From positions 1 to 40,862 of IMG/VR virus record IMGVR_UViG_3300027793_000137: a stretch of 40,862 bases of DNA; one strand, 5' to 3'. Source of the DNA: a virus. Shown one piece after another: positions 6,263 to 40,862 of this stretch. The first letter of the stretch is position 1. Each line of letters starts with the position of its first letter. The position numbers and the translations under genes are program-made. The notes under the pieces were generated by a model. It was not told the origin of the DNA. It saw only the letters and a program-made list of their open reading frames with translations, and searched no databases.

Positions 6263-6577
6263 GTGGACACGCTCAAGCTCAAGCTGGTAGAGTACGGGTT
6301 CGCGCTTATTGTTGGCCCGCTGGCGGCACTAACCGTGCAGGGGCTCAAGAGCTATCTGGTGTGGGTAGATGGCTTGTCGGTGTGGCAGAAGCGGGCCTTT
6401 GTCATGGTCACCGTTACGGTCTTTACCTTGCTGGGCCAAGTGGCTGGCATGGACTTTGGCATCAAGGACGGCGACCTGTCGGCTCTGATGGCGCTGGACG
6501 TGGAGATGGTCAAGGTCCTGCTGGCCAGCCTGTTTGCCATGGGCCTGCACGCCGTGAAAAAGATGCTGAAAAAGTAA
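6263..6577 (+). CDS. Holin-like membrane protein
   Basis: A 104-residue protein with three hydrophobic stretches: about residues 12-30 (FALIVGPLAALTVQGL), 44-62 (RAFVMVTVTVFTLLGQVAG) and 84-98 (VKVLLASLFAMGLHAV). It ends in a basic tail, KKMLKK. Size, topology and position just after the endopeptidase fit a holin that permeabilises the inner membrane and lets the lysin out. The start is GTG 6263, preceded by a strong GGAGGTGAT at 6252-6260. It is the last gene before the terminator at 6724-6756. No particular holin family was recognised. Confidence 0.72.
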   Translation: MDTLKLKLVEYGFALIVGPLAALTVQGLKSYLVWVDGLSVWQKRAFVMVTVTVFTLLGQVAGMDFGIKDGDLSALMALDVEMVKVLLASLFAMGLHAVKKMLKK

Positions 6578-6621: not shown

Positions 6622-6756
6622 TGACTTGGGGACAGCTTCGCGTGATGCGCCACGCGCACCCGATGCCAAGTCAGACCGATCAGGTGCAGAGGATTACGTC
6701 TCTCCCGTCGTAATGCCTCGCAGAAAGCTCCGGTGCGAACCGGGGCTTTTCTGTTT
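6622..6756 (+). ncRNA. Candidate phage small RNA, about 135 nt, three hairpins
   Basis: No convincing ORF lies here. The expected transcript folds into three consecutive stems. Hairpin 1 pairs TGACTTGG (6622-6629) with CCAAGTCA (6666-6673) and encloses CGCGTG/CACGCG (6639-6644, 6651-6656). Hairpin 2 pairs GAGGATTACG (6689-6698) with CGTAAT-G-CCTC (6709-6719), leaving one bulged G. Hairpin 3 is the intrinsic terminator at 6724-6756. A promoter-like sequence stands directly upstream. This could be a free-standing RNA or a processed 3' UTR of the lysis mRNA. It does not fold as a tRNA. No known RNA family was recognised. Confidence 0.5.
6724..6756 (+). terminator. Rho-independent terminator after the lysis cassette
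   Basis: AAAGCTCCGG (6724-6733), loop TGCGAA, and CCGGGGCTTT (6740-6749) form a 10-bp stem with one T-G wobble, followed by the T-rich tract TTTTCTGTTTT. It should end late transcription from tail and lysis genes and separate it from the early promoter downstream. Confidence 0.85.
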
Positions 6757-6763
6757 TGGTCCC

Positions 6764-6791
6764 TTGACCTGCAAGGCTGAAGGTGTAGACT
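6764..6791 (+). promoter_or_regulatory. Candidate first early promoter
   Basis: TTGACC at 6764-6769, a 16-base spacer and TAGACT at 6786-6791 lie eight bases after the terminator. The expected start near 6798 abuts a stem of GGTCGGG (6799-6805) and CCCGACC (6820-6826), so the transcript would begin with a hairpin. Confidence 0.55.
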
Positions 6792-6797
6792 AGGCAC

Positions 6798-7164
6798 AGG
6801 TCGGGCCTCCCTTGCGTCTCCCGACCGGTTGTGACTGTCCCACAGCCAACCAATCCTGACGCTACCGGATGGTGAGTAGGTCAAGAATCTGGGCTCTGCC
6901 GCGCCTGCACCCCAGTCGGTCAGAAATCACCAAGCCGCGTCACACGGTCGCATCACAAGACCGCAGGTAACTCCCGAGGGGGACCACGCATTAGCGGGCG
7001 TGGATCTGGAAGGGACCCCATTGTGAGCCGGACAGCCTACACGACGAGGACCGCACTGGTCCGGTGTCCCGCACGACAGGTATGCGCTTCGCGCTTATGA
7101 CCTGACCGGGAATGGCCCCGCTGTGCCCTTTGCAAAGATGAAGAACAAATAATGAAACTGCCTC
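6798..7164 (+). other. Long structured non-coding leader upstream of the early genes
   Basis: About 370 bases without a supported gene. Several stems are visible: GGTCGGG/CCCGACC (6799-6826); GGTTGTG pairing with CACAGCC after a 7-base loop just downstream; CCACGC/GCGTGG near 6990-7010; and GGACC/GGTCC nested inside GGACA/TGTCC near 7035-7070. At 7101-7114 a partial start-associated sequence (CCTGACCGGGA) runs straight into an ATG that opens a 9-codon ORF ending at 7141. The region could hold a second structured RNA, an attenuator or leader peptide, or cis signals. I recognise no known family. Confidence 0.4.
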
Positions 7165-7251
7165 TTGCTATTGCATGGGACTCTTGCCATTATACTGGTG
7201 TGCGGCGGCAATGAGGCAGCCACACAGCAACCTGACCGGGAGATTAGAACC
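7139..7251 (+). promoter_or_regulatory. Early promoter module 1 (upstream box, -35/-10, weak dyad, start-associated sequence)
   Basis: TGAAGAACAAATAAT at 7139-7153 recurs exactly at 10286-10300. TTGCTA (7165-7170), 17 bases, then CATTAT (7188-7193) form the promoter. GTGTG (7198-7202) can pair with CACAC (7221-7225), weaker than in the other copies. The start-associated sequence CCTGACCGGGAGATTAG precedes ATG 7252. Confidence 0.75.
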
Positions 7252-7551
7252 ATGACTACTGCCGCGCCCCTCTTCATCCGCTCCGAGACCCCTACCATTC
7301 TTGCCATGGGTCTTGCCTCCAATATGCTCGGCCTATTGGTAAACGGTCCCAACTCTGTGATTCAAGAGATTGTTCGTGAGCGCCTGCTTGACAATAGCGG
7401 CGAGATGGCGCAGCTCCTGCACAATGAGCTGATGGCTGGTGATGCCACAGACACACAACGTACCGCTGTTATTGTGGCAAACTTTGTTCGCCATCTTTTG
7501 CAGACCACTGTGCGGGAGACTCAAGAAAAGATGGATTGCCGGGGCTTCTAA
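7252..7551 (+). CDS. Small early protein, unknown
   Basis: A 99-residue protein, first of the early block. The composition is mostly helical: SVIQEIVRERLLDNSGEMAQ and TAVIVANFVRHLLQTTVRE look like amphipathic helices. There is no transmembrane segment I would trust and no known motif. The start is set by the conserved start-associated sequence ending one base before ATG 7252; an earlier in-frame start would read through promoter module 1. Early expression and small size suggest a host-takeover or regulatory protein, but no function can be assigned. Confidence 0.7.
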   Translation: MTTAAPLFIRSETPTILAMGLASNMLGLLVNGPNSVIQEIVRERLLDNSGEMAQLLHNELMAGDATDTQRTAVIVANFVRHLLQTTVRETQEKMDCRGF

Positions 7552-7559
7552 CATTTCAC

Positions 7560-7609
7560 GGGGTCAGTCAACCGGCTGGCCCCAACCACCTGATCGGGAG
7601 AACAGGACC
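7560..7609 (+). promoter_or_regulatory. Hairpin plus start-associated sequence without a promoter
   Basis: GGGGTCAG (7560-7567) pairs with CTGGCCCC (7576-7583), including one G-U wobble. CCTGATCGGGAGAACAG then leads to ATG 7610. No -35/-10 pair stands here, so the gene is probably read from promoter module 1, and the hairpin acts at the RNA level or marks a recombination joint. Confidence 0.65.
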
Positions 7610-7960
7610 ATGCCGAACCGCACCTTCTACGAGTGGGACGTAGAGACTTTTGTGGAATATGACGGCACCGATGATGAGGACATTATCGACCACAGCCACA
7701 GCGAGACCGTTGCCACCCTCTTGCCAATAGTGGCGCACCCTGACTGTGCCGCGCCCGAGGGATATGAGCAGGGCACCGTCAAGGCTCGGCTAGTACTGGT
7801 GCGCGATGTGTTTGATGACGCCGAGATCCTTGTTCACCGCGCGTGGGCCTACGTCGATGATGGGGAGTTGCCTGCTGAGTTCGACGATGGTTGCAAGGTT
7901 CCGGTGCGGTTCCACCGTGAGCTGGAATCAGCGCAAAAAAACTTTTGGATTCCCTCTTGA
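7610..7960 (+). CDS. Early protein, paralogue of the 8581 product
   Basis: A 116-residue acidic protein of unknown function. It is related to the 8581-9171 product: FYEWDVETFVEYDGTDDE here aligns with CYDWVSELVELHDDGVDE there, and KVPVRFHRELESAQKNF aligns with AVPLKYRKEVDTFHRRV, with a matching middle segment (VKARLVLVRD / DFVGLVRYII). The last codons overlap the next promoter: an A7 tract and the final Ser-TGA, whose TGA lies in TTGACA at 7957-7962. The strong acidity near the N-terminus (YDGTDDEDIID) could fit a nucleic-acid mimic or protein-binding inhibitor, which is speculation. Confidence 0.72.
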   Translation: MPNRTFYEWDVETFVEYDGTDDEDIIDHSHSETVATLLPIVAHPDCAAPEGYEQGTVKARLVLVRDVFDDAEILVHRAWAYVDDGELPAEFDDGCKVPVRFHRELESAQKNFWIPS

Positions 7961-8041
7961 CATATCCTGCCCCTCTTGCCATTATTCTGGTGTCCGGCAG
8001 CACTGAGGTTGCCGACCTAACCTGATCGGGAGAACAGGACC
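7935..8041 (+). promoter_or_regulatory. Early promoter module 2
   Basis: AAAAAAACTTTTGG (7935-7948) recurs at 10301-10314, with the same eight-base distance to the -35 box. TTGACA (7957-7962), 17 bases, CATTAT (7980-7985). A dyad pairs GGT+CGGCA (7989-7999) with TGCCG+ACC (8010-8017). CCTGATCGGGAGAACAG leads to ATG 8042. The stop of the 7610 gene is TGA 7958-7960, inside the -35 box. Confidence 0.85.
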
Positions 8042-8248
8042 ATGTACAAGTTCCGCGTTGTTGAGCAGCACAAGTTCCTCACCGGCCACATGGCTGGCAT
8101 GACAATAAAGAGCGAGTTTCCGATCTGCTCTCTCAGCGACTACAACGTGGAGAAGGAGGTCGGCAAGGTCTGGAGGTCCCTGTTCAGCAGTACGATGGGG
8201 CGGTTTGACAAGTACGAAGTGGTCAGCGCGCGGATCGTGAAACTCTGA
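8042..8248 (+). CDS. Small early protein, unknown
   Basis: A 68-residue basic protein: MYKFRVVEQHKFLTGHMAG opens it and DKYEVVSARIVKL closes it. Alternating hydrophobic segments suggest a small beta-rich fold; no known motif is recognised. The start is fixed by the start-associated sequence at 8021-8041. It is followed after six bases by a perfect 13-bp hairpin and another start-associated sequence, so it shares a transcript with the 8312 gene. Confidence 0.68.
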   Translation: MYKFRVVEQHKFLTGHMAGMTIKSEFPICSLSDYNVEKEVGKVWRSLFSSTMGRFDKYEVVSARIVKL

Positions 8249-8254
8249 ACCATA

Positions 8255-8311
8255 GCCCGGGGCCAGCCGGATTGCTGGCCCCGGGCATCACCTGAACGGG
8301 AGAACAGGGCA
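8255..8311 (+). promoter_or_regulatory. Perfect 13-bp hairpin plus start-associated sequence
   Basis: GCCCGGGGCCAGC (8255-8267) pairs perfectly with 8274-8286 around the loop CGGATT. CCTGAACGGGAGAACAG then precedes ATG 8312. No promoter and no T-run are present. It occupies the place where other modules carry the promoter-linked dyad. Confidence 0.75.
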
Positions 8312-8503
8312 ATGTCAAAGGAAATCAACTACAAGGTCGGCGAGCAGGTTTGGATTGTTGGCTACTACGACCGGCCCTCGCGGATGTGGTGGGCCTTCTA
8401 CCGGGACGCCGAAGGCAACCAGATCGGGGACGCATGGTTTGATCCCTGCCGCGACATTCTGCTGCTGATCCGCCCCGACGTCCCGGCATTGGTTGCCTCT
8501 TGA
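8312..8503 (+). CDS. Small early protein, unknown (SH3-like composition)
   Basis: A 63-residue protein rich in aromatic residues (YKVGEQVWIVGYYDRP, MWWAFYRDAEGN). The pattern of short strands with Gly/Asp turns resembles small SH3-type beta barrels; that is an impression only. The stop TGA at 8501-8503 lies inside the TTGACA of promoter module 3, giving the C-terminal Ser seen in several genes here. Function unknown. Confidence 0.66.
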   Translation: MSKEINYKVGEQVWIVGYYDRPSRMWWAFYRDAEGNQIGDAWFDPCRDILLLIRPDVPALVAS

Positions 8504-8580
8504 CATAGCTCGCACCTCTTGCCATTATTGTGGTGTCAGCGCCTCTGCTGGCACCATCACCTGAACGGGAGAACAGACCA
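8500..8580 (+). promoter_or_regulatory. Early promoter module 3
   Basis: TTGACA (8500-8505), 17 bases, CATTAT (8523-8528). The dyad TGGTGTCAGC (8531-8540), six bases, GCTGGCACCA (8547-8556) overlaps the expected start near 8535. The start-associated sequence CCTGAACGGGAGAACAG precedes ATG 8581. Confidence 0.87.
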
Positions 8581-9171
8581 ATGGCGCGTGAGATTTGCTA
8601 CGACTGGGTGAGTGAGCTGGTAGAGCTGCACGATGACGGTGTTGATGAGACGCTAGAGCAAGAGTACGCAGCCACCTACGCACAGGCCCGCCAGTCAGCC
8701 CGAGCCACGATTGAGCGCGAAGGAAGCCAACACCCTGACCTGATGTTTGAGGATTTCGTTGGGTTGGTCCGCTACATCATCGTTGATGGGCAGGTGCAGG
8801 AGACCGAGAGCGTGTATGTGCAACAGGACAACCGGCTGCCTCACACCTTCTTGTCAGGTGCCGCCGTGCCGCTCAAGTATCGCAAAGAGGTGGACACCTT
8901 CCACCGCCGCGTAGACTGGGACCGGTACGAGGCGGAAACCTCAGTTGACCGGTTAGTCACTGAGTACGATCAGGCGCGCCAGCAGGTAGACACCAGCCGC
9001 CAGCTTGCGAACTGGGCTGGCAATCAGCGGCGGGGTGGCTACGAGGAGCGCGAATACTTCTACGATATGGGGCAAGCGCACCGCGCCGAGATGCAGCGTG
9101 CCGAGGACCGCATGGCCGCGATTGGGCTGCGGCTAGATGCGCTGATGCAACGTCACGCTGAGGAGGCGTAA
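8581..9171 (+). CDS. Early protein, larger paralogue of the 7610 product
   Basis: A 196-residue protein. Residues 1-115 align with the whole 7610 product (for example CYDWVSELVELHDDG and AVPLKYRKEV). Residues 116-196 are extra: a Glu/Arg/Gln-rich helical part (LVTEYDQARQQVDTSRQLAN) and a C-terminal helix (HRAEMQRAEDRMAAIGLRLD), both likely coiled coils. ATG 8581 follows the start-associated sequence; a GTG at 8530 lies in the promoter dyad and is rejected. The pair suggests duplication of a promoter-plus-gene cassette. Function unknown. Confidence 0.75.
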   Translation: MAREICYDWVSELVELHDDGVDETLEQEYAATYAQARQSARATIEREGSQHPDLMFEDFVGLVRYIIVDGQVQETESVYVQQDNRLPHTFLSGAAVPLKYRKEVDTFHRRVDWDRYEAETSVDRLVTEYDQARQQVDTSRQLANWAGNQRRGGYEEREYFYDMGQAHRAEMQRAEDRMAAIGLRLDALMQRHAEEA

Positions 9172-9173
9172 GG

Positions 9174-9509
9174 ATGACGACCAAGTACGTGAAGTGGCTG
9201 CGCGCGACTGAGGAAACCATCCGCGCAGATTGTCAGGAGGCGCAGGCGTTGCTGGAAAGTGTCCGCCGACTCAAAGCGGGATGGCTGGGACCCGCCGAGC
9301 TGGGCGCGGATGGGATGCCGCTGGACCGTGAGGCGGCACGGGCGAATGCGGTGCATAGAGCATGGCAGGCAGTGATCGCGGCGGAGCTGGATGCGGAGGC
9401 GCTCTGCCGGTCCTACCGGGCGATTCTGTCGCGTCTAGATCGTGGCGAGAGGCCCTTTCTATTGGATGACGACTCTATATATTCCAACCTGCCGGTCGGG
9501 CCTATCTGA
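9174..9509 (+). CDS. Early protein, unknown, helical
   Basis: A 111-residue, Ala/Arg/Glu-rich protein predicted by eye to be mostly helical (ATEETIRADCQEAQALLESV; HRAWQAVIAAELDAEALC). It starts two bases after the 8581 stop without a start-associated sequence of its own, behind GAGG in the preceding codons, so it is translationally linked to that gene. The C-terminus is acidic then hydrophobic (LLDDDSIYSNLPVGPI). No family was recognised. Confidence 0.65.
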   Translation: MTTKYVKWLRATEETIRADCQEAQALLESVRRLKAGWLGPAELGADGMPLDREAARANAVHRAWQAVIAAELDAEALCRSYRAILSRLDRGERPFLLDDDSIYSNLPVGPI

Positions 9510-9520
9510 TCGGTCTATCA

Positions 9521-9542
9521 ACCCCAACGGGAGAACGGGAGA
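9521..9542 (+). promoter_or_regulatory. Degenerate start-associated sequence before the erf-like gene
   Basis: CCCCAACGGGAGAACGGGAGA precedes ATG 9543. It keeps the CGGGAGAAC core, repeats the GGGAGA, and lacks both the CCTGA block and any hairpin or promoter. Confidence 0.6.
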
Positions 9543-10283
9543 ATGAAAACCAGCAATAGCATCGGGGCACTGGCCCCGGCCCTCGTCGCCGCCGCCGCCG
9601 AGCTTGCGCCAGTGGCAAAGGACGCGGTGAACCCGGCGTTCCGGAACCGGTACGCCACGTTGGACGCCATCATGGAACAGGTGCGCCCAGTCCTTGCGCG
9701 GCACGGGCTGGCGGTCATGCAGACAGGATCTACGCCGGAAACAGTGGACGGGCGGCTCATGGCGGTCGGGGTCGAGACGATGCTTCTGCACAAGTCGGGC
9801 GAATGGATCGCCAGCAGTGTCACCCTCCCGGTTGAGAAGCTGACCGCGCAGGGTGCCGGAAGCGCCCTCAGCTACGGGCGGCGTTATGGCCTTTCTGCCA
9901 TCCTCGGGCTCACGGCGGAAGATGATGACGGGCAAGACGCCTCCGCGCGCCCGGTGGCTATTCAGGCCCCCAACAGCGCACCGGCGGCAGTGGAGCCCGG
10001 GCAGCGCCTCTATTCCAACGTCCCAGACACCCCGCGCGCCAAGCCATTCAGCGGGGACGTGAACGAGGCGATGAGCTGGAAGTTGCCGTTCAAGAAGTCC
10101 AAGTTCTACAACGTGGCGTTGCAGGACATTCCCGAGAACGAACTGGAAAAGCTGCTAGAGTTCGTGCGCCGGGACCCTGAGAAGTTCAAGGACATTATCG
10201 CGCGGGTCGAGACCGTGCTGGAGGCATGGACCGGCATGGCCGCGAACGCCGAGGCTGAGGAGCGGGACGACCTGCCCTTCTAA
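9543..10283 (+). CDS. Erf-family single-strand annealing protein
   Basis: A 246-residue recombinase of the ERF superfamily, which anneals complementary single strands and helps circularise or recombine phage DNA. Supporting sequence: NPAFRNRYATLDAIMEQVRP (about 29-48), HGLAVMQTGS, and the central GAGSALSYGRRYGLSAILGL (about 105-124), the best conserved ERF motif. A Pro/Ala linker (about 135-165) leads to a C-terminal region of about 75 residues. The last residues, ERDDLPF, resemble the acidic tip of bacterial SSB (DDIPF), which binds SSB partner proteins. No other replication protein is apparent, so this is the main DNA metabolism gene of the early block. Confidence 0.88.
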   Translation: MKTSNSIGALAPALVAAAAELAPVAKDAVNPAFRNRYATLDAIMEQVRPVLARHGLAVMQTGSTPETVDGRLMAVGVETMLLHKSGEWIASSVTLPVEKLTAQGAGSALSYGRRYGLSAILGLTAEDDDGQDASARPVAIQAPNSAPAAVEPGQRLYSNVPDTPRAKPFSGDVNEAMSWKLPFKKSKFYNVALQDIPENELEKLLEFVRRDPEKFKDIIARVETVLEAWTGMAANAEAEERDDLPF

Positions 10284-10285
10284 TG

Positions 10286-10408
10286 TGAAGAACAAATAAT
10301 AAAAAAACTTTTGGGGACCCTCTTGCTATTGGGGGTCCCTCTTTGCATTATTGTGGTGTCCGGCGGCACCAAGGCAGCCGACACCAACCTGATCGGGAGA
10401 CCAGACCA
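10286..10408 (+). promoter_or_regulatory. Early promoter module 4, with extra inverted repeat around -35
   Basis: It carries both upstream boxes: TGAAGAACAAATAAT (10286-10300) and AAAAAAACTTTTGG (10301-10314). TTGCTA (10323-10328), 17 bases, CATTAT (10346-10351). GGGACCC (10314-10320) and GGGTCCC (10333-10339) flank the -35 box, unlike in other modules, and may be an operator. The dyad TGGTGTC-c-GGC (10354-10364) pairs with GCCGACACCA (10377-10386). CCTGATCGGGAGACCAG precedes ATG 10409. Confidence 0.82.
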
Positions 10409-10834
10409 ATGCTCAAGACCACGACGACCCCCGCCTACCTGACCACCCAGCCCGTTGTGGCAGAGTTCCCGGCCTACCGGATTGTGGCGGCGGACCTGAC
10501 CCGCGAGTTCCAGTACGGCGAGCAGTTTGCGGTGCCTTACGAGAGCGGGCGGTACGGCACGATGTACCGGATGTACACCCTTGGCTCAGTGGCCGGATAC
10601 GCGGCGGACTACAACGAGGACCCCACGGCGGCGGTGGAGCGGGCGCGCGCGCGCGGCGAGGAGCTGTACTGGGCGAACCAGAACTCGACCATGCTGACCG
10701 CGTGGGACCGCCCGCAGGAGACCTTCCCGATGGTGCAGTACGGCGATGTGATCCGGTTCGCTGGCAAGCAGTTCTTCCTTGATAAAGCGAACAACAACAA
10801 CATCGTGCTGGTTGAGTTGCCAGCAGCCTCTTGA
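10409..10834 (+). CDS. Early protein, unknown
   Basis: A 141-residue protein. The N-terminus MLKTTTTP resembles that of the 10912 product (MLDTIKTTTTP), and the DNA is nearly identical there, so the two genes share start-region ancestry. The rest is Tyr-rich (FPAYRIVAADLTREFQYGEQ; GRYGTMYRMYTLGSVAGYAA) and ends with a likely beta-stranded segment (VQYGDVIRFAGKQFFLDKA). The stop TGA at 10832-10834 lies in the next -35 box. An upstream in-frame ATG at 10343 is in the promoter spacer and is rejected. Function unknown. Confidence 0.7.
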   Translation: MLKTTTTPAYLTTQPVVAEFPAYRIVAADLTREFQYGEQFAVPYESGRYGTMYRMYTLGSVAGYAADYNEDPTAAVERARARGEELYWANQNSTMLTAWDRPQETFPMVQYGDVIRFAGKQFFLDKANNNNIVLVELPAAS

Positions 10835-10911
10835 CATAACGCAGCACTCTTGCCATTATTCTGGTGTCAGCAATGCGGCTGGCACCACCACCTGATCGGG
10901 AGAACAGGACT
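10831..10911 (+). promoter_or_regulatory. Early promoter module 5
   Basis: TTGACA (10831-10836), 17 bases, CATTAT (10854-10859). The dyad TGGTGTCAGC (10862-10871) pairs with GCTGGCACCA (10878-10887) around a different loop from modules 3 and 6, so arms are conserved while loops vary. CCTGATCGGGAGAACAG precedes ATG 10912. Confidence 0.87.
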
Positions 10912-11280
10912 ATGCTAGACACCATCAAGACCACGACCACCCCCGGCGCGACCCCTGACGATGCGATTGATCTCAACTACGCCGACTCGTCGCGCCTTAT
11001 GAAGCGTGTGCTGACCAAGGCGTTCCCGGGCACCAAGTTCGGCGTCCGGTTGAGCAGCGGCACCGGCTACGGCAACTGTTACCTACGGTGGACTGATGGC
11101 CCGACCGTGACTGAGGTGGCACAAATCACCTCCGCGTTTGAGGGGCAGGGGTTTGATGGCTGGACGGATATGGCGTACAGCATGAGGACCAAGATCATGT
11201 ATGACGCGCAGCGCAAGCAGTGGGTGCGTCCGCGCCTGCGAATGATTCTTGAGCAGCGCGACCGCTCCGCAGAGTCTTGA
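10912..11280 (+). CDS. LPD29-like domain protein (polyvalent-protein domain), early
   Basis: A 122-residue protein. The core RWTDGPTVTEVAQITSAFEG followed by GFDGWTDM matches the pattern I associate with the large polyvalent protein-associated domain 29 (WTDGPT and FDGxxDM). That domain is found alone or inside big proteins of phages and conjugative elements that are injected with DNA. The domain spans about residues 35-95; its function is not established, though a DNA-entry or anti-defence role has been suggested for such proteins in general. The stop TGA (11278-11280) lies within the -35 box at 11277. The ATG follows the start-associated sequence. Confidence 0.68.
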   Translation: MLDTIKTTTTPGATPDDAIDLNYADSSRLMKRVLTKAFPGTKFGVRLSSGTGYGNCYLRWTDGPTVTEVAQITSAFEGQGFDGWTDMAYSMRTKIMYDAQRKQWVRPRLRMILEQRDRSAES

Positions 11281-11356
11281 CATTCTCTGCACCTCTTGCC
11301 ATTATTCTGGTGTCAGCGATCCGGCTGGCACCATCACCTGAACGGGAGACAGACCG
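11277..11356 (+). promoter_or_regulatory. Early promoter module 6
   Basis: TTGACA (11277-11282), 17 bases, CATTAT (11300-11305). The dyad TGGTGTCAGC (11308-11317) pairs with GCTGGCACCA (11324-11333). A slightly shortened start-associated sequence, CCTGAACGGGAGACAG, precedes ATG 11357. This is the last module; it probably drives the overlapping genes that follow, possibly as far as terminase. Confidence 0.85.
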
Positions 11357-11575
11357 ATGGCACAGCACCAGATGCAGCAGATGACCGTAGAAGCTCTTGA
11401 GCAGTGGGCCGAGGAGTTGGCGGCGTTCATTCAGGCATGGGACCGCCCGTCCAGCCGCTGGCACCGCGATGTGGATACGGGCGGGCTTGTGTTGGATGCG
11501 GCCGAGCAGAAGTTGCGGCAGGTGCGCGAGGAGCTCGGGTTTCGCCGTGCGGCGGCGTGGGAGGTCAACGTATGA
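11357..11575 (+). CDS. Small helical early protein, unknown
   Basis: A 72-residue protein, Gln/Glu/Arg-rich, likely two helices (QMTVEALEQWAEELAAFIQA and AAEQKLRQVREELGFRRAAA). It is the last gene with the start-associated sequence. Its stop TGA overlaps the following ATG (ATGA at 11572), where the genome switches from separated modules to overlapping stop-start coupling. No family recognised. Confidence 0.65.
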   Translation: MAQHQMQQMTVEALEQWAEELAAFIQAWDRPSSRWHRDVDTGGLVLDAAEQKLRQVREELGFRRAAAWEVNV

Positions 11576-11775
11576 GCCGCCGCCGTCATCTGATGAACCC
11601 GGCCGATGATTGGGTTCCGTTGCCCCGTGATCCGGGCACCCGGATGCGGCAGTTCCCAGCCCTGTGCGGAAAGCTGCTGACGATTGTGCCCATGCTGGAG
11701 ACCTCACCCGGGCAGTCGATCTGCCAGCACTGTGAGGCGCTGGGGGCGGCGATGGGGCTGGAGGCTGTGCCGTGA
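11572..11775 (+). CDS. Small CxxC protein, unknown
   Basis: A 67-residue protein beginning MSRRRHLMNPADDWVPLP. One Cys occurs in FPALCGKLL, and a CxxC pair near the end (SICQHCEAL) may bind a metal as a half zinc ribbon. It starts inside an ATGA overlap and ends in a GTGA overlap with the next gene. The size and layout fit a real coupled gene. Function unknown. Confidence 0.6.
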   Translation: MSRRRHLMNPADDWVPLPRDPGTRMRQFPALCGKLLTIVPMLETSPGQSICQHCEALGAAMGLEAVP

Positions 11776-12290
11776 CTACCCTTGACCTTTTCAGCGCGCG
11801 TGAGATCCGAGACGCCGCCATTGCGCGCGCGGATCAGACTGTACAGGACGACCCGTTTCAGTCGGCCGTGGTGGAGCAAATCACCGAGATGCTTATTGAC
11901 CGGCTGCGCGATGTGGGGCAACTGGAGTTCACCGCCGACCTTGTCGGGGTGCTGCTCGACGAGATGCAAATCGTGGACGATCTTTCAACAAGGCGGCGGC
12001 TGGCGTCTACCATTATCAACCGTGGCAAAGGCAAGCACTGGCGGCGGATCGGGTCCGCGCAATCCGCGCGGCGGCACTGTGCCGAGATCGCGCTCTGGCA
12101 ACTCAACGAGGGGGGCGGGACCGTGAGCGGGGACTTGATTGCAATGGCACGGGCGGGCATCACCCTGCTGCCGGGAGAGGCCAAGAAGGTGGCGAATGCC
12201 TTCGACAAGCTGCAACAGCGGCTCCATGAGGTGGAGGCCGAGCGTGATGCCGTGCGCGCGGAGCTGGCCAAGTGCCGGGGTGAGGCGTGA
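11772..12290 (+). CDS. Protein with C-terminal coiled coil, unknown
   Basis: A 172-residue protein starting at GTG 11772 (GTGA overlap). Residues 1-110 are a helical domain (VVEQITEMLIDRLRDVGQLE; TRRRLASTIINRGKGKHWRR) with a basic stretch that could touch nucleic acid. From about residue 140, KVANAFDKLQQRLHEVEAER onwards is a clear heptad coiled coil. No recognised family. Expressed with the DNA metabolism genes. Confidence 0.7.
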   Translation: MTTLDLFSAREIRDAAIARADQTVQDDPFQSAVVEQITEMLIDRLRDVGQLEFTADLVGVLLDEMQIVDDLSTRRRLASTIINRGKGKHWRRIGSAQSARRHCAEIALWQLNEGGGTVSGDLIAMARAGITLLPGEAKKVANAFDKLQQRLHEVEAERDAVRAELAKCRGEA

Positions 12291-15365: not shown

Positions 15366-15442
15366 TCGCCATTTTGCTCGGGCACCGGATCGGAGGCAGC
15401 CCCATGTACGTGGGACAGGTGGCCAATCATGCGGATCTATAA
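15362..15442 (+). CDS. Possible 26-codon ORF bridging to the IbrA-like gene
   Basis: ATG 15362 overlaps the preceding stop as ATGA, and the ORF ends at 15442, inside the start of the IbrA-like gene (ATG 15429). The product would begin MIAILLGHRIGGSPMYVG. The exact stop-start coupling at its 5' end and the overlap at its 3' end argue that it is translated, perhaps only to carry ribosomes across a 60-base gap. No homology is claimed. Confidence 0.35.
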   Translation: MIAILLGHRIGGSPMYVGQVANHADL

Positions 15443-16589
15443 CCACGCCAACGTATTGGAAGCCGCGCAGCAGCGGATTGCGTGGCTGTTCGACGAGTTT
15501 GAAAACGTGGTCGTGCATTGCAGCGGCGGCAAGGATAGCACTGTGGTGCTCAATCTGGCGCTGGCTGAAGCTGAACGCCGGGGGCGGCTCCCGCTGCCGG
15601 TCATGTGGCTAGACCAAGAGATGGAATGGCAAGCCACGGCCGATATGGTGCAGGCGGTTATGGAGGACCCGCGCGTAGAGCCGCGTTGGTTTCAGATCCC
15701 TTTCCAAATGCCGAACAGCACGTCGGCAGAGGCATGGATCAAAATCTGGGACGCCGACCGGCCTGACTTGTGGATGCGCCCAAAATGGGCGCGCGCATAC
15801 ACAGAGAACATCTTTGGCCCCGGGGAGGACTTCTATAGCCTGTTCCAAGCAATCCGGCGGCATTTCTACCCTGATAGTTCCTGCGCGACCATTGGAGGCG
15901 TTAGGGCGGAAGAGAGCCCCGGTCGAGCGGCAGGGCTGACGAGTTTTCCGACCTATAAGTGGGTGACGTGGGGGACCAAGGAGGACCCCAAGCGGGGGCA
16001 TTACAACTTCTACCCCATCTACGACTGGACGTACCGGGACGTGTGGAAGGCCATTCATAGCCACGGCTGGCCGTACTGCCGGATCTATGACCAGATGTAT
16101 CAGTACGGCTACCACATACAGGATATGCGGGTCAGCAACCTGCACCATGAGACCGCCGTCAAGCATTTGCGGTTCATGCAAGAGATTGAACCGGTAACGT
16201 GGGAGAAGCTCACCCGCCGCATGAAGGGCATCAACACCGTCAAGCAGCTCAAGCAGTTTGCGTCACAGACCCCTAAAGAGCTGCCGTGGATGTTTTCTGA
16301 TTGGAAAGAGTACCGGGATTTCCTGCTGCCGCGTTTGGTGCATGACCCAACCACCCAGCACAACCTTGCCAAAACGTTTGCGGCCTTTGACAAGAAGTAC
16401 GTTGACATGAAACGACCTGACCTTCGCCACAAGGTTGAGGTGGCGTCCATCCTGACCCAAGACGGGGACGTGATGACCAAGATGAAGAACTGGGAGATTT
16501 CACCACCGGTTGGCACATGGCGCAAATGGAAGCGCGGCGATGCGATCCGGCCTGAGTTCCTCCGCACGAACCCCTACATCAATGGATGA
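15429..16589 (+). CDS. IbrA-like PP-loop ATPase (PAPS reductase superfamily, DUF3440-like)
   Basis: A 386-residue protein. The PP-loop SGGKDSTVVLNLALAEAE at about residues 32-49 binds ATP and releases pyrophosphate. GVRAEESPGR at about 157-166 and YPIYDWTYRDVWKAI at about 195-209 are the other superfamily motifs. The C-terminal region (YDQMYQYGYHIQDMRVSNLH) matches DUF3440/IbrA proteins. The ECGLH active-site motif of true PAPS reductases is absent, so sulfate reduction is unlikely; substrate adenylation as in nucleic-acid thiolation enzymes (DndC, TtcA) is more plausible. IbrA and IbrB were named as paired regulators in E. coli prophages, and an IbrB-like gene follows with an 8-base overlap. 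Substrate unknown. Confidence 0.82.
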   Translation: MRIYNHANVLEAAQQRIAWLFDEFENVVVHCSGGKDSTVVLNLALAEAERRGRLPLPVMWLDQEMEWQATADMVQAVMEDPRVEPRWFQIPFQMPNSTSAEAWIKIWDADRPDLWMRPKWARAYTENIFGPGEDFYSLFQAIRRHFYPDSSCATIGGVRAEESPGRAAGLTSFPTYKWVTWGTKEDPKRGHYNFYPIYDWTYRDVWKAIHSHGWPYCRIYDQMYQYGYHIQDMRVSNLHHETAVKHLRFMQEIEPVTWEKLTRRMKGINTVKQLKQFASQTPKELPWMFSDWKEYRDFLLPRLVHDPTTQHNLAKTFAAFDKKYVDMKRPDLRHKVEVASILTQDGDVMTKMKNWEISPPVGTWRKWKRGDAIRPEFLRTNPYING

Positions 16590-38564: not shown

Positions 38565-40862
38565 ATGCCGCAGACCGTTGCCTATCGCCTGACGATCCGC
38601 AACGCCTCCACAGTGGCCAACCCAAACGGCACAGCGGACGAGCTGGTGCTAACGTCTCAGCCGTTGGGGGCCAACCCATACATTGCGGCGGCTCCGAGCG
38701 GTGATGGGGCCGAGGTTGATCCGCTGACGGGCTCTGTGCGGACGGGCTCCTACACGGTGGAAGTCGTTGATGCCAACACCGGCACTGACGCCACCGGCAC
38801 CATCCGGGTCCTCACCAACAAGCTAGAGGACGCCACCTTCCGCCAGCAGTTGCTGTCCCGGCGGGCCTATCTGGACATTGTGCGCGCCGGGGTCACTAGC
38901 CCGCTCGCGGTCGGCTACATCACCAGCATTCGGCTCATCAGCCCGATGCGGTATGCTATCAGCATTGGCGACACGCGCCGGGTCGAACGCACCCAAACCA
39001 TTTTCCAAGGGGCCAGTCTCGGCGCGTATAACATCCGGGGCTGTTTCACTGGGGGACCGGTCACCGCTGACTTTGGCACCATCCTCGCGCGCGGCGGCTG
39101 GAAGTATCAGGTGTTTGTCAGCGGGTCTGATGTTGAGCTGCGGTTCGTGGAAGGCTATGAGCCTGCCATGGGCGCGCCATTGGTCAAAGATTGGCGCAAG
39201 GTGGCGCGGGCAGACATTCCTGAGCTGCTGCAAACTTACACCCAGCCCAACCCCTACGCGCTCGCACTTGGGCCGGGTAACCCCAGCAGCTCACAGTACG
39301 TCACCAGCTTTACCACGCCTGTCTTTGATTCAGTCAGCAATGACTGGGTGGTTGGCGGCGGGGTGCAGGCCATCATCAACGGCACGGCGGTGCGCGCGCT
39401 GGTGTGCGGCTACAGCGAAACTCCGTACACTGAGAGTGCCGGGGTTTCACAGGTGTTTCTGTATTGGCCGGGGTGCCCGTACAGCACCGGTCAGACTGTC
39501 TATTGCTCACTCACGACGGTAGACATTAACGACAAGTGCCCGCTTTATTTGGACGCGCATCCGGTTGATCTGGTGACAGCCATTTGGACCAACGCGCGGG
39601 TGGCGTATGACTCCAGCGCGGCATGGATTCAGACGATTAAAGACCTGATTGGGCCAAATGTCCGGCTGGCGTGCCGATTCCCGCAGGCTCCGGTCATGGA
39701 TGAGTTTCTGGAGCAGGCCATTTTTGGCCCGTTTGGCATCAGCGCGCGCACGAACAGCCAAGGGTATCAGGAGCTGTTCCCGACCCGGATCACCACCAGT
39801 GCGGTGCCGTCGTTGCAGTTGACCGCAGCAGATATGCGGGGCGCGGACGAGGTGGTGTTTGATCTCGACGAGCAGACGGCCATCAGCGGGGTGCGCCTGA
39901 CACAGCAAGTGTTCGCGCCCCGGTACTATGCTCCCGGCACGACCGGGCAGGCCACCGCTGGCGGTGGCTCACAGGGCAGTGGCCCCATGGATGGGGTCAT
40001 GGTGACTGAGCAGACACAGACCGCGCAGTACCTTGACCCGAATCTTACCGTATTTAGTGGGCGGGTCATTGAGTACAAGATCCCGGGGATGATTCACAGT
40101 GCGGCAGACTTCATGCCGGACACCGGGGTGCAGCTTGATGCCATCGCGGTCGGGATGTTTGACCGGTTTGGGCGCGGGTGCCAAGCCGCCGAGGTGTCTG
40201 TCTTGGCTACCTCTCCGGTGGCTGCGGCAGCCCTTGGGGATGAGATATATTTTGCGGCTCCGCACTTTCCGAACAAGGGCTATCGCATTGGCGAGAGCAC
40301 GGTCGGGGACCGCATCATGCAAGTGGTGCGCCGGACAGAGACCCCGGCGGGTCCGGTATTCCGCCTGCTGGATTCTGGGCTGGCCGCGCAGCCGGTCGCG
40401 CCTGCTGCCACTATCAGTATCGCGCAAAACCCCAACGCCGCCAGCACGACCGCGCGCTTTACCATTACCAATGCCGCCGCGATTAATGCGACCGGGGTGT
40501 TGCAGGTCCGGGTGGAATATGCGACTGGGACCAGTACGCCGACCACGAACGGCAAAGACTTCACAGTCTATAACGCGGGTGAGGTGCCGACTGGCGCGGT
40601 AGACCTTCCGCCCGTGCTGACACCGGGTGTGAATGTCTATGTGCGCGCGCGCACCGAACAGGCGGGGCGGCGACCCTCCGCATGGACAGCGTGGGCCGGG
40701 GTGGCGCTGGCCAACATTCCGGTGATTAGCTCCCTCATCAGCAGTAACCTGCGGCAGACAGCGGTCACGTTGTCATGGACCAACAGCAGCACCAGCCTGC
40801 CACTGGCTGTGTTTGCCTATCAGGGCGGGTCTGCTCCGGCGAACTGGCAGCCCTACCGGGTC
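38565..40862 (+). CDS. Large tail-tip / central fibre protein, 5' part (3' end outside the window)
   Basis: ATG 38565 opens a frame that stays open to the last base (766 codons). It follows the distal tail stop by 14 bases. The first 296 residues are unique to this end (MPQTVAYRLTIRNASTVANP; RRAYLDIVRAGVTSPLAVGY), and an interior segment ADIPELLQTYTQPNPYALAL leads to the part shared with 1-1420. Those residues would bind the tail tip or tape measure complex; the rest, read from 1421-3907, carries FN3-like and duplicated domains. The codon frame matches across the overlap without indels. Confidence 0.8.
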   Translation, partial: MPQTVAYRLTIRNASTVANPNGTADELVLTSQPLGANPYIAAAPSGDGAEVDPLTGSVRTGSYTVEVVDANTGTDATGTIRVLTNKLEDATFRQQLLSRRAYLDIVRAGVTSPLAVGYITSIRLISPMRYAISIGDTRRVERTQTIFQGASLGAYNIRGCFTGGPVTADFGTILARGGWKYQVFVSGSDVELRFVEGYEPAMGAPLVKDWRKVARADIPELLQTYTQPNPYALALGPGNPSSSQYVTSFTTPVFDSVSNDWVVGGGVQAIINGTAVRALVCGYSETPYTESAGVSQVFLYWPGCPYSTGQTVYCSLTTVDINDKCPLYLDAHPVDLVTAIWTNARVAYDSSAAWIQTIKDLIGPNVRLACRFPQAPVMDEFLEQAIFGPFGISARTNSQGYQELFPTRITTSAVPSLQLTAADMRGADEVVFDLDEQTAISGVRLTQQVFAPRYYAPGTTGQATAGGGSQGSGPMDGVMVTEQTQTAQYLDPNLTVFSGRVIEYKIPGMIHSAADFMPDTGVQLDAIAVGMFDRFGRGCQAAEVSVLATSPVAAAALGDEIYFAAPHFPNKGYRIGESTVGDRIMQVVRRTETPAGPVFRLLDSGLAAQPVAPAATISIAQNPNAASTTARFTITNAAAINATGVLQVRVEYATGTSTPTTNGKDFTVYNAGEVPTGAVDLPPVLTPGVNVYVRARTEQAGRRPSAWTAWAGVALANIPVISSLISSNLRQTAVTLSWTNSSTSLPLAVFAYQGGSAPANWQPYRV
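39443..40862. repeat. Overlap copy B of the window ends
   Basis: This segment matches 1-1420 base for base with about 41 substitutions and no gaps, up to the last base of the window. If the two copies are alleles of one locus, the genome length is about 39,442 bp. Confidence 0.9.

Follow-up and report, generated by a model that had tools for sequence, protein, structure and literature searches.

Stem-loops at the extreme 5' end stabilise some bacterial mRNAs, among them those of ompA and papA. Both RppH and RNase E require a single-stranded 5' end, and 5' stem-loops block them (PMC3997798). In T4-type phages, the promoter-early stem-loops (PeSLs; Arbiol et al. 2010, Comeau et al. 2014) are described in passages of PMC4503421 and PMC3950731 as strong sigma-70-type early promoters with stem-loops, repeated among small variable open reading frames (ORFs), with gene exchange at the cassettes. 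In cluster K mycobacteriophages many non-structural genes carry a start-associated sequence (SAS), and in about half of these cases an inverted repeat lies upstream at a variable spacer (extended SAS, ESAS); the authors found little support for RNA pairing of the ESAS arms and favoured DNA binding (PMC3203893). For the haloarchaeal virus HGTV-1, a passage of PMC3950731 places most ORFs of one genome arm after a promoter-like box and an inverted repeat, and proposes shuffling. Here we describe an array of repeated early leaders, each joining a hairpin and a start-associated motif and most of them also a promoter, in a virus sequence of 40,862 bases (IMG/VR virus record IMGVR_UViG_3300027793_000137; this whole stretch is the window).

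The array is assigned to neither PeSL nor SAS/ESAS and lacks defining features of both, because its stem-loops do not resemble terminators, it has no 13-bp SAS and its arms are unlike those of ESAS. It shares with PeSLs, as these are presented in the passages cited, the strong sigma-70-like early promoter (TTGACA-type in relatives of the window phage) and the exchange of genes between cassettes amid small variable ORFs. PeSL stem-loops are described as terminators in the relevant part of PMC4503421, whereas the window stem-loops would form the 5' end of a new mRNA, are followed by no T-run and are not among the predicted terminators of the window. They are also joined to a conserved ribosome-binding-site (RBS) motif, unlike the PeSLs in those passages, and the phages are unrelated by DNA. 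An earlier note on this DNA had likened the array to SAS/ESAS in layout but not in sequence. This part stood: the motif marks the starts of a subset of non-structural genes (in the window only at 7.2-11.4 kb), and the 13-bp cluster K SAS GGGATAGGAGCCC was absent from the window even when 2 mismatches were allowed. The likeness did not extend to the arms: those of ESAS are paired 17-bp inverted repeats that have changed without regard to RNA pairing, whereas those of the window phage and its relatives are 7-13 bp long and keep pairing. HGTV-1 resembles the array in the promoter box and inverted repeat before many ORFs and in the proposed shuffling, but its box is archaeal TATA-like, and the HGTV-1 passages of PMC3950731 report no pairing test. 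The general cassette type is already known, and the pairing-conserved 5' hairpin is the unusual part.

Repeated leaders in the early region

Searching the window for the SAS-like motif CCTGAWCGGGAGAACAG with up to 3 mismatches gave 8 matches, all on the + strand and none outside the array, against 0.27 expected; 0 of 100 shuffled sequences reached 8. A ninth copy (CCTGAACGGGAGA-CAG) differs by a one-base deletion, and two copies, that of module 1 and that of the Erf-like gene, are weak with 3 mismatches each. The promoter pattern TTGMYA-N17-CATTAT occurred exactly six times, where 0.29 occurrences were expected, and five of the six promoters have an extended -10 element (TTGC ahead of CATTAT). 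The nine early starts with a common upstream motif and the six promoters with a spacer of exactly 17 bases, both proposed in the earlier note, were thus recovered (Table 1). Motifs, promoters and dyads are confined to 7.1-11.4 kb on a single strand. The module array is real and beyond chance, and relatives carry it too.

Table 1. Positions of the early leader modules in the window.
Feature	Span	Strand	Promoter	Hairpin	Motif	ATG
Module 1	7165-7254	+	TTGCTA-17-CATTAT, 7165-7193	7197-7228	7231-7247	7252
Module 2	7560-7612	+	none found	7560-7583	7589-7605	7610
Module 3	7957-8044	+	TTGACA-17-CATTAT, 7957-7985	~7989-8016	8021-8037	8042
Module 4	8255-8314	+	none found	8255-8286 (13 bp)	8291-8307	8312
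Module 5	8500-8583	+	8500-8528	8531-8556	8560-8576	8581
Weak motif copy (3 mismatches), ahead of Erf-like gene 9543-10283	9522-9545	+	none	none	9522	9543
Module 7	10323-10411	+	TTGCTA-17-CATTAT, 10323-10351	10354-10386	10388-10404	10409
Module 8	10831-10914	+	10831-10859	10862-10887	10891-10907	10912
Module 9	11277-11359	+	11277-11305	11308-11333	11337-11352 (one-base deletion)	11357

A dyad between promoter and start, claimed earlier, was found at all six promoter copies. The arms TGGTGTCAGC/GCTGGCACCA are indeed identical in modules 5, 8 and 9 while the six-base loops differ (GCCTCT, AATGCG and GATCCG, respectively), and in module 7 the right arm is GCCGACACCA, with pairing retained as had been stated; modules 1 and 3 fold too, with changed arms. 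The earlier note had overlooked strong hairpins at the two promoterless starts (modules 2 and 4; 2 of the 8 hairpin copies), which are placed as in the other modules and are related in sequence (GGGGTCAG/GGCTGGCCCC and GGGGCCAGC/GCTGGCCCC versus GGTGTCAGC/GCTGGCACC). The identical arms include one T.G pair, which is a mismatch in DNA and a wobble pair in RNA. A joint MAFFT alignment of all window leaders misaligns the two hairpin types, and pair counts were therefore taken from subsets. When the two promoterless hairpins were aligned with modules 5, 8 and 9, 45 of 45 cells paired, with changes from U-A to G-C and from U.G to C-G; taken alone, this subset is only suggestive.

At module 7, a terminator-like inverted repeat (10313-10340) overlaps the promoter, with the -35 box in its loop. 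Its counterpart in the relative L014 (about 10770-10805, by eye) likewise has the promoter within a terminator-like inverted repeat. The overlap is reminiscent of PeSLs.

Hairpin position, pairing and exchange among relatives

Exact-pattern scans of IMG/VR returned the same virus plus two contigs that otherwise share nothing with the window. Relatives were recovered by protein-anchored IMG/VR scans with the Erf-like and glycosyltransferase-like proteins (contigs labelled L0xx). Their early regions have the layout of the window with changed letters: a TTGACA-type promoter, an immediate hairpin, a purine-rich RBS and ATG. Over 26 promoter leaders the predicted helix begins a few nt past the -10 hexamer, at the expected +1. 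This fold was begun 4 nt after the -10 and is blind to earlier positions; in a sliding profile free of that limit, 32-nt windows that start between -3 and +5 relative to the end of the -10 had folding energies averaging -11.5 to -12.7 kcal/mol, against about -2 to -7 kcal/mol beyond the flanks of this peak. From +13 onward the sequence is less structured than shuffles, which suggests that RBS and start are kept open. Dinucleotide shuffling gave a combined p of 2e-13 over all 26 copies and, because these are related, p = 0.0014 with only the first copy from each of eight lineages.

Pairing was followed most closely in the clade of L016, L022-L024 and L026-L028, where a sequence-only alignment yields a single helix of 8 pairs capped by an invariant UAGCCG loop. 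In this alignment of eight sequences pairing holds in 92% of cells and 14 cells are doubly changed, versus at most 3 when partners were slid. A covariance model built from the eight recovered three further distinct copies ahead of a 46-aa ORF (E 3e-8 to 1e-7), which raised the compensated pairs from 4/8 to 6/8 and the doubly changed cells to 22, versus at most 7 slid. These figures carry the caveats that the structure was derived from related copies and that symmetric evolution of an operator can imitate covariation. The earlier note had held that arms drifting without pairing in related genomes would speak against the module; in the relatives we found pairing conserved. Between a DNA operator, an RNA hairpin or a combination of the two it had made no choice. 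Our comparison speaks for an RNA element rather than a DNA element, because of the compensatory changes, the G.U pairs in stems of relatives, the promoterless copies and the different stems within one genome.

The leaders are also exchanged as cassettes and reassorted with unrelated ORFs. Those of L062, L065 and L071 are 95-97% identical, yet the first 150 nt of the following ORFs are no more alike than shuffled sequence, and in BLASTP among these ORFs none matched another. L023a and L028a have a leader in common (84%) but not the ORF, and the ORF of L028a is 58% identical to that behind leader b of L014 while the leaders differ. Alignment of the window with L014 runs to 7256, two bases beyond the ATG of module 1, and resumes at 8564 within the motif of module 5; one promoter-to-promoter unit of L023 is missing from L024. 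Breaks in homology thus sit at or near start codons or promoters. Encapsidated mini-circles were reportedly attributed by Arbiol and colleagues in 2010 to recombination between PeSL cassettes.

The layout, the hairpin at the expected +1, pairing conserved over sequence and leaders joined to unrelated ORFs are what the sequence itself shows. On this basis we give an even chance to a repeated leader whose 5' stem-loop protects the mRNA, leaves the RBS open and makes independent early units. Each leader would consist of a strong host-type (sigma-70) promoter, a hairpin that takes up roughly the initial 20-35 nt of the RNA, and an unstructured segment carrying a strong Shine-Dalgarno sequence (the SAS-like motif) and ATG. 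The 5'-terminal stem-loop would leave RppH, RNase E or RNase J without a single-stranded 5' end, and the protected end together with the open RBS would yield abundant, durable small early mRNAs; promoterless hairpins could act likewise after read-through and processing. Recombination at homologous leaders may in addition exchange, insert and remove small genes, perhaps aided by the phage's own Erf-like annealing recombinase. A stabilising 5' stem-loop is the simplest reading because of the expected 5' position, the tolerance of sequence change, the kept pairing and the open RBS. In ompA and papA the hairpin lies at the extreme 5' end, as is predicted for the window copies, and likewise tolerates sequence change and is followed by an open RBS, but these are single host genes, whereas the window device is a repeated, exchangeable cassette whose stabilising effect would be analogous.

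Several observations weigh against mRNA protection. The location of the hairpin at +1 rests on promoter geometry, and the outer three pairs of the window copies (TGG/CCA) precede the likely +1, where an RNA model has no need of them. Hairpins are weak in L015b, L016b and L025a, and early leaders in other lineages of the family (L051, L054) have none. Full pairing in the window subset was equalled by 53 of 500 shuffles and is not significant alone. Plain protection does not require the loop invariance of the UAGCCG clade.

Other readings of the hairpin

The main rival is a phage or host RNA-binding factor, either a translation regulator or a nut/put-type antiterminator, that reads loop or stem and coordinates the early genes. 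It ranks first among the rivals because the UAGCCG loop is constant in one clade, in 11 copies whose stems have changed at 6 of 8 pairs, the usual look of loop recognition. The clade of the window itself, however, has no common loop, the array is nearly free of terminators for an antiterminator to overcome, and no candidate RNA-binding protein was identified; we consider this reading possible but unlikely. That one phage or host factor could coordinate the genes, as suggested in the earlier note, was not borne out: stems differ among copies and a common loop is kept by only one clade.

We find it distinctly unlikely that the dyad is a DNA operator, on which a dimeric phage or host repressor bound across +1 would switch the early promoters jointly. 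The overlap of the dyad with the expected start, the identical arms around different loops in three window copies, the outer base pairs ahead of the likely +1 and the possible mimicry of covariation would all suit an operator, which may still apply to the window copies. Against this stand the T.G pair in the window arms, the G.U pairs in relatives and the two copies without a promoter. The three leaders of L023 (a, b and c), moreover, have three different stems and one common loop and hence no common half-site, the reverse of what a single-dimer operator would show; the window arms are identical in 3 of 6 promoter copies.

Loop recognition by a phage small RNA (sRNA), one molecule controlling many early mRNAs through pairing with their 5' hairpin loops, is in our view improbable. 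A short putative sRNA is encoded ahead of the array at about 6622-6755 (promoter TTGCAC-16-TAGATT, intrinsic terminator 6723-6750), and its position is conserved also in L016, L023, L024, L027 and L028. In five relatives a conserved AGGCUAG linker between the sRNA hairpins is able to pair with UAGCC of the early-leader loops, and GGCUA, the exact complement of UAGCC, was present in the sRNA of all five tested genomes with UAGCCG loops. By shuffling, this match has a chance probability of 0.13-0.15 per genome, and the genomes are related. L014 has GGCUA yet no UAGCCG-type loops, and other lineages showed no consistent complement. The pairing is only a lead.

We regard it as very improbable that these are plain PeSL-type elements, that is, promoter-coupled terminators that end the transcription of upstream genes and whose repetition is due to recombination only. 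The strong promoters, the stem-loops and the shuffling among small variable genes would fit such elements, and a terminator-like stem does overlap the promoter of module 7. But the module hairpins sit downstream of the promoter and would terminate their own mRNA, and a terminator reading of them was rejected for the absent T-runs. Recent duplication only, with a functionless dyad copied along with its gene, is already disfavoured and most improbable of all: copies within a genome are related and three window copies have exactly equal arms, but modules 5, 8 and 9 have come to differ in loop and spacer and not in their arms, and across clades the stems diverge yet keep pairing.

Upstream RNAs, source genome and significance

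Module 1 is preceded by two RNAs, the putative short transcript and a larger noncoding RNA at 6799-7113 (about 315 nt, promoter-like site 6764-6791). About 38 viral contigs carry the larger RNA (homologues e.g. L023:8495-8810, L014:8210-8522 and L051:15101-15221). Its covariation is strong: among ten sequences 26 of 48 pairs were compensated. In the 5' domain of 18 sequences 99.7% of cells pair, with 59 doubly changed cells versus at most 7 slid; these figures include a pseudoknot in which the first hairpin loop pairs with the stretch following CAAUCCU. It had no match in Rfam or the phage collection, and Rfam found nothing in the window at gathering thresholds, weak E-value hits being judged chance. 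We propose it as a candidate new RNA family; outside the main finding, it may be a more novel object than the cassette. Pairing of this RNA (UCUCCCGA) to the SAS motif looked possible by eye in the window, but was lost in L015 and was dropped. In L051:15420-15525, L053:16640-16760 and L054:15100-15195 the larger RNA is followed by another short terminator-ended RNA (CCGTGTCGGGGGATAC...GGCGGGTTTGTTTTT), and this further lineage of the family has an early leader without a hairpin.

The early array, which contains the gene of the Erf-like annealing recombinase, is flanked by a small gene (6263-6577) that resembles a holin gene in position and size and by packaging and structural genes assigned by PHROGs (terminase, portal, protease and major head protein). 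The nearest relatives keep the window order of glycosyltransferase-like gene, lysis-type genes, noncoding region, variable small genes and Erf-like recombinase; a second group (L062, L065, L071 and L073) has part of it. No close cultured relative was found in a DNA search of 50,697 phage records, which gave a single match, of 93 bp, to Pseudomonas phages; it falls within a 63-aa ORF (ORF52 in phage Ab18, amid structural genes). A host search in 84,980 genomes gave a single hit, weak and irrelevant, from which no host could be named. The window ends (1-1420 and 39443-40862) are gapless repeats of 97.1% identity with 41 mismatches, and the genome is probably circularly permuted or terminally redundant, about 39.4 kb long and assembled across strain variation. 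A phosphoadenosine-phosphosulfate-reductase-like gene (15429-16589; PHROG 2302, E 2.6e-80) is followed by a ParB-like gene; tblastn of both against the fetched stretches of relatives, which cover them in part, gave no match. Sequence reading like a cytosine-C5 DNA methyltransferase occurs in the variable early region of L015 (about 11170-12240) and L016 (about 8110-9190) and is absent from the window.

The array presents phage gene expression as a plug-in, in which a portable promoter, 5' hairpin and RBS receive swapped small genes, in a cassette unrelated in sequence to PeSLs and SAS/ESAS. Because its hairpin is kept by pairing, unlike ESAS as reported, the role of start-associated repeats becomes testable with simple reporters, and a sequence-tolerant 5' hairpin cassette could double as an expression part.

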